A stretch of DNA of 40,727 nt from Gammaproteobacteria bacterium (GTDB lineage: Bacteria > Pseudomonadota > Gammaproteobacteria > Nevskiales > Nevskiaceae), in NCBI GenBank assembly GCA_028871525.1, contig JAGWMX010000014.1:1-40727 (forward strand). The letters are read 5' to 3'. Of this stretch, positions 19,891 to 40,710 are shown in pieces. The position numbers were made by a program, and so were the translations under genes. How positions within the stretch are numbered: position 1 is the stretch's first letter; each line of letters opens with the position of its first letter. The notes beneath the pieces are model-generated. The model did not search any database and was not told the origin of the DNA. It worked only from the letters and a program-made list of their open reading frames with translations.

Positions 19891-19975
19891 GCGAAAGTGG
19901 CGGAATTGGTAGACGCACTGGATTTAGGTTCCAGCGCCGCAAGGCGTGCGAGTTCGAGTCTCGCCTTTCGCACCA
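19891..19975 (+). tRNA. tRNA-Leu (anticodon UAG)
   Basis: The acceptor arms GCGAAAG and CTTTCGC pair perfectly, with A73 and an encoded CCA. The anticodon stem CTGGA/TCCAG encloses a loop with TAG as anticodon, decoding CUA and other CUN codons. A long variable arm typical of class II tRNA-Leu and a TTCGAGT T-loop are present. It lies 48 nt upstream of tig, with no terminator between, so read-through into tig is possible. Confidence 0.97.
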
Positions 19976-26602: not shown

Positions 26603-26678
26603 GGGTGCTTAGCTCAGTCGGTAGAGCATCGCCCTTACAAGGCGGGGGTCGGCGGTTCGAGCCCGTCAGCACCCACCA
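26603..26678 (+). tRNA. tRNA-Val (anticodon UAC)
   Basis: The acceptor arms GGGTGCT/AGCACCC pair perfectly, followed by A73 and CCA. The anticodon loop CTTACAA gives TAC, decoding valine GUA/GUN. The D-loop and GGTTCGAG T-arm are normal. It is followed by tRNA-Asp 34 nt later. No separate promoter is visible after hupB, so it may be processed from a hupB transcript. Confidence 0.97.
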
Positions 26679-26712: not shown

Positions 26713-26789
26713 GGAGCGGTAGTTCAGTTGGTTAGAATACCGGCCTGTCACGCCGGGGGTCGCGGGTTCGAGTCCCGTCCGCTCCGCCA
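26713..26789 (+). tRNA. tRNA-Asp (anticodon GUC)
   Basis: The acceptor arms GGAGCGG/CCGCTCC pair perfectly, with G73 and encoded CCA. The anticodon loop CTGTCAC gives GTC, decoding GAC/GAU. The T-arm is GGGTTCGAGTCCC. It forms a pair with the preceding tRNA-Val. Confidence 0.97.
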
Positions 26790-38730: not shown

Positions 38731-39735
38731 TCAGTGGTCGACCCGGATCATCAGCTTGCCGAAGTTTTCGCCGGTGAACAGCTTGAGCAGCGTCTGCGGG
38801 AAAGTTGCCAGGCCGTCGACGATGTCTTCGCGCGAAGTCAGCTTGCCGGCGGCCATCCAGCCGGCCATGTCACGGATTGCCTCGCCATAACGGTCGGCCC
38901 AGTCGAATACCACCATACCTTCCATCCGTGCGCGGTTGACCAGCAGACTCAGGTAGTTCTTCGGTCCCTGGACACCAGTGGTGGCGTTGTATTGTGAGAT
39001 TGCGCCGCAGATCACGATGCGCGCGCGCAGGCGGATGCGGGGCAGCACCGCATCGAGGATGTCCCCGCCGACATTGTCGAAATAGACGTCCACGCCTTCG
39101 GGGCAGTGCTGTGCCAGACCTGGGGAAATCGAACCTTGCTTATGGTCGATGCAGGCATCGTAGTGCAGTTCTTTGACCGCGTAGACGCATTTTTCCGAGC
39201 CGCCGGCGATGCCCACCGCGTGGCAACCCTTGATCTTGGCGATCTGCCCGACTATGCCGCCGACCGCACCGGTGGCGGCCGACACCAGCACCATTTCGCC
39301 GGGCTGAGGTCGACCGACCTCGAGCAGGCCGAAATAGGCGGTCATGCCGGGCATGCCGAGTACCGACAGGTACTTCGGCAGCGGTGCAAGCTTAGGGTCG
39401 ATTTTGTTGATCTCCTTGCCATCCGAGATCGCGTAGGCCTGTACGCCGAAGCCGCCGCCGACGTGGTCGCCGGCTTTGAATCGCGGGTGCTTGGACTCCA
39501 CCACTTCACCGACTGCGCCGGCGCGCATCGGCTCGCCGATCGCCACCGGCTTGATATAACTCTTGCCCTCGTTCATCCAGCCGCGCATCGCCGGATCCAG
39601 CGAGATATAGGCGACCTTGACCAGCAATTGGCCGTCAGCCAGCGGAGGTATCGCCTCGGTGACGAAATCCCAGTCGCTGCGCTTGGGCAGACCGACCGGG
39701 CGGGCGGCGAGTTTGAACGCGCGGTTTTGAGGCAT
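38731..39735 (-). CDS. NADP-dependent oxidoreductase, zinc-free MDR family (PTGR/CurA-like)
   Basis: This is a 334-residue medium-chain dehydrogenase/reductase without the structural zinc Cys set. The N-terminal GroES-like domain has YISLDPAMRGWM (about 57-68) and the nucleotide-binding domain has VSAATGAVGGIVGQIAK. VDVYFDNVGGDILDAVL and GAISQYNAT are typical of NADPH-dependent 2-alkenal and prostaglandin-reductase-like enzymes that reduce C=C bonds of enones. I chose ATG 39735 (MPQNRAFKLAARPVG), as in relatives. It lies 24 nt upstream of the crotonase gene and is probably co-transcribed with it. The substrate is unknown. Confidence 0.88.
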   Translation of the reverse strand: MPQNRAFKLAARPVGLPKRSDWDFVTEAIPPLADGQLLVKVAYISLDPAMRGWMNEGKSYIKPVAIGEPMRAGAVGEVVESKHPRFKAGDHVGGGFGVQAYAISDGKEINKIDPKLAPLPKYLSVLGMPGMTAYFGLLEVGRPQPGEMVLVSAATGAVGGIVGQIAKIKGCHAVGIAGGSEKCVYAVKELHYDACIDHKQGSISPGLAQHCPEGVDVYFDNVGGDILDAVLPRIRLRARIVICGAISQYNATTGVQGPKNYLSLLVNRARMEGMVVFDWADRYGEAIRDMAGWMAAGKLTSREDIVDGLATFPQTLLKLFTGENFGKLMIRVDH

Positions 39736-39822
39736 CGAAGTTTTCCGTCGGAATCCAGGAAACCAATGATCGCACAGCGCCGCCGTAATCGGTCTTTCCG
39801 GTGTCGCCCAACTTGACCATCC

Positions 39823-39912
39823 TATTGAAGCGGCAGTCAAATGTTTGAACCCGGTGCAGTACTTGCCGCCAGCGCTGTGTGTGAATCGCACCGCGCAATG
39901 GCCGCTTCAATA
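39823..39912. repeat. Inverted repeat unit 1 (12-bp arms, nested stems)
   Basis: The arms TATTGAAGCGGC (39823-39834) and GCCGCTTCAATA (39901-39912) are perfect inverted copies. Between them lie TCAAA-TG-TTTGA (39837-39848) and CGGTGC/GCACCG (39852-39857 with 39888-39893). The arrangement suggests a branched RNA of about 90 nt. Confidence 0.65.
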
Positions 39913-39931
39913 ACACAGATCATGGTTTTTG

Positions 39932-40023
39932 CTATTGATCCGCCAACCTCGCAACGTCATCGACCGCAGGCGGTATCGGCTGGAGCAGGGCGTTGTTCAA
40001 ACATCATGTTGCTGGATCAATAG
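39932..40023. repeat. Inverted repeat unit 2 (10-bp arms)
   Basis: The arms CTATTGATCC (39932-39941) and GGATCAATAG (40014-40023) are perfect inverted copies, 72 nt apart, enclosing CAACG/CGTTG and ACCGC-AG-GCGGT pairings. The right arm overlaps the first two bases of the AGGAG ribosome site at 40022-40026. Confidence 0.6.
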
Positions 40024-40033
40024 GAGCACGGCG

Positions 40034-40060
40034 ATGACCCGGTATTGCCGGTGGACTTGA
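40034..40060 (+). CDS. Possible nine-codon leader cistron
   Basis: ATG 40034 follows AGGAG (40022-40026) at 7-nt spacing, and the frame reads M-T-R-Y-C-R-W-T then TGA. It lies 84 nt before the DUF996-like gene. The ribosome site is among the better ones in the window for so short a frame, and its first bases can pair with the upstream arm of repeat unit 2. It could be a regulatory leader peptide; chance cannot be excluded at this length. Confidence 0.3.
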   Translation: MTRYCRWT

Positions 40061-40143
40061 CAGCCGCATGGCCGAGGGGGTTAGTTAGTGAAGATGTCCC
40101 TAGCGTGAGTGCCGGTGGATTTCGCAAAAAGGGAGAACGATTT

Positions 40144-40710
40144 ATGAGCAATACCACCAAGATGCTCGGCGGTTGGGGCTGGGTTGCGGCGCTGGTGCTG
40201 GGTTTTTTCGGCTGGCTGTTGCCGGGCCTGGGGGGCATTCTCAGTATTGCCGGACTGGTCTGTGTGTTCATCGCGATGATGCGTGCGGGCCGTGAGTTGA
40301 ATCGACTTGAGATCACCAACAAGCTGATCGTCGCATTGGTGCTCAGCGTCGTTTCCGGAGTGGTTTTTACGTTTTTTGTCGGTGCATCGCTGATCGCGTT
40401 GCTGGCCAATCACGGCAACGCGGCAGGAGTCACCGGTTTCGGCCTGGGCATGATCCTCGGCGGGCTGATGGCGTGGGCGGCCTACATCGGCGCGAGCTGG
40501 TTCTGGTATCAGGCCTGCGTCGCGATCGGGGACGCCGGCAATGCGCCGATGCTGAAGACCGGGGGGCTGCTCAGTTTCATCGGCGCGCTCACCGTTGTCG
40601 TGTTCGGCATCGGCGGGCTGATCGGTCTGGTCGGCGGCATCCTGCAGGCGGTTGGTTTTTTTACCGCACCGGAGGGCAAGCCGGCGGTATCCGCCGTCAC
40701 GAACGGCTGA
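40144..40710 (+). CDS. DUF996-like integral membrane protein
   Basis: The 188-residue protein has about five hydrophobic segments: roughly 8-22 (WVAALVLGFFGWLL), 25-42, 57-85, 97-120 and 140-170. A charged loop MRAGRELNRLEITNK lies between the second and third. The composition and layout resemble the DUF996 family of uncharacterised membrane proteins. I chose ATG 40144 because GGGAGAA (40131-40137) precedes it at good spacing; the frame is open further upstream without a ribosome site. No function is known. It is the last gene in the window, 17 nt from its end. Confidence 0.75.
   Translation: MSNTTKMLGGWGWVAALVLGFFGWLLPGLGGILSIAGLVCVFIAMMRAGRELNRLEITNKLIVALVLSVVSGVVFTFFVGASLIALLANHGNAAGVTGFGLGMILGGLMAWAAYIGASWFWYQACVAIGDAGNAPMLKTGGLLSFIGALTVVVFGIGGLIGLVGGILQAVGFFTAPEGKPAVSAVTNG

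Follow-up and report, generated by a model that had tools for sequence, protein, structure and literature searches.

A two-hairpin repeat beside a DUF996 gene in a Nevskiaceae genome is probably an IS630-related MITE with covarying arms

Results

In the window (the whole stretch of 40,727 nucleotides analysed), the region studied is flanked on one side by a minus-strand gene for a zinc-type oxidoreductase, which has the Pfam domains ADH_N_2 and ADH_zinc_N and an assumed start at 39735, and on the other by a gene for a DUF996 membrane protein. The region holds two long-spaced inverted repeats, with the arm pairs, lengths and spacers that the preliminary description had given. In the first, the arms 39823-39834 and 39901-39912 are complementary at 12 of 12 positions across a spacer of 66 nt. 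In the second, CTATTGATCC (39932-39941) and GGATCAATAG (40014-40023) match at 10 of 10 across 72 nt, and an inverted-repeat search extended the pair to 39932-39947 with 40008-40023 (88%). A third and longer pairing had been overlooked: 39820-39850 pairs with 39995-40025 over 31 nt (74%), and this is a transposon terminal inverted repeat (TIR). When the 408 nt from 39736 to 40143 were shuffled 2000 times with dinucleotides preserved, a perfect 12-bp inverted repeat with a spacer of at most 100 arose in 4 shuffles and the observed count of 10-mer matches was reached in 1. The decisive evidence that the hairpins are not accidental is that they belong to a multi-copy family. The features of the locus are collected in Table 1.

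Table 1. Features of the repeat and of its immediate surroundings (positions in the window)
Feature	Position	Strand	Basis
Complete element with its terminal TAs; one copy of the dispersed ~200-bp repeat (probable MITE)	39823..40022	+	Genome repeat search; flanks unrelated outside these bounds
TA, putative target-site duplicate, left	39823..39824	.	TA, pyrimidine and purine counts in 47 elements; paralogue, one-sided
TA, putative target-site duplicate, right	40021..40022	.	As for left TA
Left outer TIR: tip TATTGAAGCGGC and box TTGAAC (39845-39850)	39823..39850	+	Pairs with 39995-40025; bipartite pattern
Right outer TIR: GTTCAA (39995-40000), tip to 40022	39995..40022	-	Pairing; such tips bound IS630 transposase genes
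Arm 1', inner inverted copy of left tip, without box; closes hairpin 1 (39823-39912, 90 nt)	39901..39912	-	
Linker ACACAGATCATGGTTTTTGC; consensus in the genome of the window ACACAGAGCATGGTTTTTGC	39913..39932	+	
Arm 2, inner inverted copy of right tip, without box; opens hairpin 2 (39933-40022, 90 nt)	39933..39947	+	
Arm 2' of hairpin 2, the right tip	40008..40022	-	Pairing, covariation
Eight-codon frame MTRYCRWT (ATG 40034) and stop (TGA 40058-40060), predicted only; outside the repeat, in unique flank	40034..40060	+	Sequence; outside aligned copies
DUF996 membrane-protein gene, neighbour only	40144..40710	+	Pfam PF06195, E 3.8e-12

The genome of the window was searched with 39800-40140. This returned 28 places at E ≤ 1e-3 (query included; identity 69-100%), 16 of them near the full length of ~200 bp. 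When 19 of these places (one internally deleted) were aligned, the flanks were unrelated beyond TATTGA...TCAATA. The repeat is thus bounded by its tips, and the mini-cistron of the preliminary description and most of its AGGAG (40022-40026) are unique flank: both are present, with only the first A of AGGAG inside the repeat. The element is short (~200 bp), multi-copy (28 places) and apparently non-coding, and carries the TIR of 31 nt (74%).

The distribution of the repeat was followed in 58 genomes of the family, that of the window being G000. A 60-position core model without structure matched 25 of the 58 at E ≤ 0.1, and at E ≤ 1e-4 it matched 15; its E-values are rough, and the 17 sequences that went into it (model R1) came from genomes among those it later matched. 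Most matches came from G047 (69) and G000 (44), and none from G001, the only other genome of the genus of the window. Occurrence outside the family was judged from weak DNA matches and one scan of genome contigs with an exact pattern across arm 1' and the linker. The scan gave five stretches: one in Solimonas terrae, three on contigs of one Nevskia MAG and one in Pelotomaculum, the last without hairpins. As L086 is identical in sequence to L011 and L090 to L014, genomes G046 and G054 are Solimonas terrae and the Nevskia MAG or very near to them; Solimonas belongs to the Nevskiaceae, the family in which the genome of the window is placed. Plasmids and phages gave no match to the element at E ≤ 0.01. 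Among viral contigs, two core-pattern matches both lacked hairpins, and an end-pattern scan yielded 90 stretches, two of which had a partner tip at a distance expected of a MITE or insertion sequence, both pairs inside unrelated long reading frames.

For comparison between genomes, elements were extracted by their four tips, with at most five mismatches in all to TATTGA..CGGC; arm positions 7-8 and 13-16 were not used in detection. Because copies with more than five tip mismatches were left out, decayed copies and elements without all four tips are under-represented, and shorter second hairpins may be missed by the span limits of the search (70-120 and 65-120). Of 50 distinct elements, three of ambiguous orientation (L262, L244, L133), we kept 47 and dropped three that were wrongly bounded (one pick each in L120, L149 and L233).

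The order of parts is the same in several genera: tip 1 (TATTGAnnCGGC), often TTGAA ~10 nt further inward, tip 1 repeated in inverted form at ~90 nt, the linker, inner tip 2 and, after ~90 nt, outer tip 2. Hairpin 1 spans 86-92 nt in 45/47 elements; hairpin 2 spans 88-95 in 42/47 and 65-68 in 4/47; the linker (ACAAAAAACATATTGATTTTGT in G047) measures 18-22 nt in 44/47, and the whole element 195-207 in 41/47. Hairpin 1 interiors from different genomes (236 pairs) reach an identity of 0.557, scarcely above the 0.547 of shuffled ones; there, length is preserved and sequence is not. The linker reaches 0.621 against 0.499 shuffled.

Several copies depart from this plan. Five consist of one hairpin and the linker only (L055, L056, L057 and L083 in G000; L178 in G054), the loss lying at or near the linker edge. 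The order of the hairpins about the linker is swapped in L128 (G019), which reads TCCGG hairpin, CACAGAGCATGG linker, AGCGG hairpin. The element of L180/L229 (G012) has TGTTGA feet, and TTGAA on an inner tip instead of the outer ones. On contigs C95 (L053) and C15 (L058) of G000, half copies in opposite orientation end in GAGCTTATCCTTGAATAAA-type sequence and look like one copy split by another insertion sequence. In G047, the core model matched close to the start (within ~70 nt of the first base) of ~20 contigs; assembly therefore breaks at the element, so that both its copy number and the full autonomous element are likely to be underestimated. Near-identical copies in that genome suggest recent movement.

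The outer ends form a bipartite inverted repeat of ~28 bp, composed of the tip, with TA at its extremity, and often the TTGAA box. The window copy departs from the tip consensus by one mismatch at its right end. The box was found at 32/47 outer left and 28/47 outer right ends but at only 1/47 (L180) and 0/47 inner ends; on a strict count, about a third of outer ends lack it. The pattern TTGAnnCGGC-N10-TTGAA occurred in 13/58 genomes, with 60 matches in G047 and 28 in G000, against a single match in all 58 genomes for its reversed control. Singletons with no element behind them were seen at loci of G056, G055, G015 and G050, and some of the singletons are chance matches. TA is present at both ends in 34/47 elements, preceded by a pyrimidine in 41/47 and followed by a purine in 42/47. 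This context agrees with the CTAG preference of IS630, known from a title in the reference list of PMC2170065. G047 also contains a second dispersed palindromic repeat (core CGTCATTCCCGCGCAGGCGGGAATCC; L149, L154, L257, L258, L247), in or beside which the element is inserted. L154 is an uninterrupted paralogue of this host repeat and has TA where L149 is interrupted, as seen on the one side that is assembled. From these data we infer a TA target-site duplication at the element ends.

The arms of the 47 elements covary: the compensatory change in relatives that the preliminary description had set as a check was found. Overall, positions 7-8 pair in 179/188 cells, above all of 5000 shuffles, which keep the make-up of the columns and not the relatedness of the elements, so that the resulting figures are not probabilities. 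In hairpin 1, 89/94 cells at positions 7-8 are paired (shuffles: mean 49.2, maximum 64), and in hairpin 2, 90/94 (mean 58.2, maximum 71). Across hairpins, only 3/94 and 6/94 cells are paired; covariation therefore links each outer tip to the inner copy in the same hairpin and does not extend across hairpins. Positions 13-16 are paired in 106/188 cells of hairpin 1 (mean 75.4, maximum 98) and 150/188 of hairpin 2 (mean 80.2, maximum 106). With one element per genome and type (n=23, locus identifiers outside five genomes being counted as separate genomes), positions 7-8 still pair in 42/46 and 43/46 cells, against 17.9 and 23.4 after shuffling.

The same outer ends bound IS630 transposase genes. 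In G046, an intact frame of 348 aa (ATG at L268 988; NCBIfam IS630 NF033545, E 3.8e-70; DDE_3, E 9.6e-33) lies between TATTGAGCCGGCC, from L268 932, and GCCGGATCAATA, to 2058. A protein search with this transposase found relatives in 7/58 genomes at E ≤ 1e-20, six with at least 55% identity. The G015 relative (69%) has tips at both ends, one perfect and one with a single mismatch. In G047, contigs C4, C37 and C102 end within a segment that opens with the tip and box of the element and encodes, on the other strand, the C-terminus of an IS630-type transposase. Over its first 27-28 bp, this parent end is 89-93% identical to MITE ends of that genome, and at L267 the transposase C-terminus lies 30 bp inside a perfect tip. 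TIRs in common with an autonomous element of the clade are thus seen at both ends in G046 and G015 and at the parent end in G047. One tip each was found beside transposase relatives, whole or broken, in G047, G025 and G036 (broken in the last two), and the G057 relative, fragmentary and situated where its contig ends, has no tip. In tip scans, the autonomous elements showed no inner tip copies.

Element and transposase co-occur only loosely. A transposase relative (E ≤ 1e-20) is present in just two, G046 and G047, of the 15 genomes that the core model matched at E ≤ 1e-4, and of the seven genomes with a relative, G005, G025, G036 and G057 are without a core match at E ≤ 0.1. At E ≤ 1e-20, the search with the G046 transposase found no relative in the genome of the window, and G001, the genome nearest to it, lacks both a core match and a transposase of this type. 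Distant IS630 genes (31-38%, in G005 and G015) did not show the tips at their ends. Despite this loose co-occurrence, the ends common to the element and to IS630 transposase genes argue for placing the element among the MITEs of this IS630 subgroup.

Other candidate parents were rejected. The IS630 genes L270, L272 and L275 of the genome of the window are not bounded by the tips, those in L275 belonging to a neighbouring copy. A decayed ISXO2-type, ISAcr1-like transposase gene of the IS1595 family lies between the ends of the element at L061 1913-2539 (G000:C71). We interpret it as a nested insertion with subsequent loss, since its 3' end resembles an ISAcr1 end and the ISAcr1 termini differ from those of the element; across 24 IS1595 loci of relatives, nothing came closer to the tips than 6 mismatches in 21. 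G015 also carries five same-scoring copies of another IS630-type element (L290, L292-L295), three of which, among those compared, share termini beginning near TACTAACCTTCTCAAAAG.

Discussion

The preliminary description had proposed that a structured leader RNA controls DUF996 by hiding the AGGAG of the short leading frame in its fold. Several observations agree with this: the element ends 121 bp upstream of the DUF996 gene, its last base is part of AGGAG, folding of whole elements as RNA favours the hairpins in 33/47, and the elements fold better than shuffled sequences on average (mean z -3.75 to -4.04). The window copy itself scores -2.8 and -0.4 for the two units and -2.4 as a whole. However, these mean scores are equal on both strands, and the window copy, taken as one RNA, is predicted to pair its outer ends and not to form the two hairpins. 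The short frame stands outside the repeat, and the repeat is dispersed and mobile. A DUF996 homologue exists at E ≤ 1e-10 in 2/58 genomes, that of the window and G014; conservation upstream of the gene, which could be compared with this one other genome, was not found. In the 3.5 kb around the G014 gene, no TATTGA tip with fewer than 2 mismatches was present except one AATTGAACCGGC, and G014 gave no core-model match. Non-standard cells show no consistent excess of G.T (34 against 50 A.C in sum; 14 against 36 in hairpin 1, 20 against 14 in hairpin 2). Within subfamilies (one each of G000, 13 copies; G047, 8; G028, 4), 52 of 55 arm changes are one-sided and uncompensated and 3 are two-sided. A leader RNA useful to the host should show repair in place and a bias to one strand, and neither was seen; the equal fold scores and the uncompensated changes therefore favour a role in mobile DNA. 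Regulation of DUF996 by a leader is very improbable on this evidence. The association with DUF996 is local to the window copy and incidental, even if this copy may have a local effect on the gene. The hairpins match no Rfam family, which agrees with the earlier remark that they were not recognised as a known riboswitch class: at gathering score, Rfam found in the window only three tRNA genes, all elsewhere (19891-19972, 26603-26675 and 26713-26786), and over 39700-40200 one match with E 1.6, far below that score.

Other origins for a mobile DNA repeat have also to be weighed. REPs are family-specific hairpins in many copies, and a repeat of the REP/BIME kind, mobilised by a Y1 (RAYT) transposase, would resemble the present family in both respects. 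The present elements, however, have symmetric feet that carry TA at either end. Of the 45 Y1 matches, 30 were examined at their loci, and none had such a hairpin in flanks of up to ~1.5 kb a side; G000 has no Y1 match at 1e-8. This origin is very improbable. Two older MITEs, one with the left tip and one with the right, each flanked by TA, could instead have fused and moved as one, the hairpins being their old TIR pairs. Each half is indeed itself of the form TA-tip...tip-TA, and copies with one hairpin and the linker exist (L055, L056, L057, L178). However, the TTGAA box marks the outer ends and almost never the inner ones, and a fusion would explain the origin of the element without explaining why matching persists at the inner tips when the hairpin 1 interiors have lost their likeness; a fusion is conceivable, if on balance somewhat doubtful. 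The arms of a MITE might also covary without selection, if polymerase template switching between the arms of imperfect inverted repeats re-matched them. Such a mechanism is described in general in the available extracts of PMC8604942 and PMC8794818, and would act alike on both strands, as seen. Against it, the 52 one-sided and 3 two-sided changes indicate that arm matching is not quickly restored in resident copies, and the fixed 90/20/90 spans and the conserved linker are left unexplained. The inverted loops that template switching predicts, according to the extracts of PMC8794818, gave a strong match among the 47 elements only for L262 against L264, the orientation of L262 being ambiguous. 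The fixed spans and the one-sided decay thus speak somewhat against template switching alone, and we regard it as rather unlikely. Pairing that persists from one source lineage to another and decays once copies have settled is as expected of a feature that counts in mobility, or of a process at the DNA level, for example template switching, that makes the arms alike.

The best explanation is that the window element is a non-autonomous IS630-family element, a MITE, to which we give a probability of roughly 0.85. ISY100 moves by cut-and-paste into TA, which is duplicated (extracts of PMC2170065). By analogy with the ISY100 family, an IS630 transposase would recognise the outer ends of the element and cut there, and the element would have inserted at TA with duplication of the TA. 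The inner tip copies may act in mobility at the DNA level, as extra transposase sites or pairing sites at a fixed distance, and pairing may be maintained in active source elements and lost in inserted copies; these two steps are more tentative than the former. Selection of the pairing in mobility is a candidate cause only, and a role of the inner tips in transposition is suggested by the sequences more weakly than the parentage of the outer ends. As the copies in its own genome have diverged and no matching transposase was found there, the window copy is probably a fossil, placed by chance between the oxidoreductase and DUF996 genes.

The element is of a known kind, an IS630-related MITE. What is unusual is the inverted tip copy ~90 bp inside each end, which makes two hairpins around a 20-bp linker; we did not find the element or this architecture described in the open-access literature searched. 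Correia/NEMIS elements of Neisseria have TA ends and one inverted-repeat pair. They too are MITEs, for which RNA stem-loops cut by RNase III have been proposed, and no two-hairpin architecture is described for them in the extracts of PMC2229807. The nearest relative in logic is RUP of Streptococcus pneumoniae, a repeat of 107 bp proposed to be moved by IS630-Spn1; as presented in extracts of PMC2229807 and PMC3049150, it is likewise a short multi-copy repeat with inverted repeats that match an IS630-family element, and it has TA targets. Unlike RUP, the present element has ~200 bp, two separate hairpins, inner tip copies, a conserved linker and arms that covary between species. ISY100 and the IS630 family (Tc1/mariner) share with the apparent parent the transposase family (NF033545, DDE_3), and a TA target with its duplication is established for ISY100 (extracts of PMC2170065); the window element has no transposase gene. 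BOX of the pneumococcus is a modular composite repeat with predicted structure as well; in the extracts of PMC3049150, its boxB modules vary in number, whereas here there are two hairpins of nearly fixed span.

As a class, the active lineages of this MITE may keep, over the divergence of genera, two hairpins of near-fixed span, each formed by a tip and the inverted copy of that tip further in, with loops free in sequence and not in length. What is recognised could then be the DNA geometry of four tip sites (90-20-90 bp) as a whole, for instance as an intramolecular synapse or a cruciform more effective than the parent in capturing the transposase. We put this forward as a speculative proposal, with the odds rather against it.

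Hairpin arms that change in compensation are often regarded as proof that a functional RNA exists; here they occur in a mobile DNA repeat whose fold scores are equal on both strands, which makes the family a clean case for testing the meaning of covariation. If the pairing is selected for mobility, it would represent a new design principle for defective elements that live as parasites of a transposase; should template switching be its source, it would be a warning for RNA discovery based on covariation. For the Nevskiaceae, the element provides a marker of IS630 activity.
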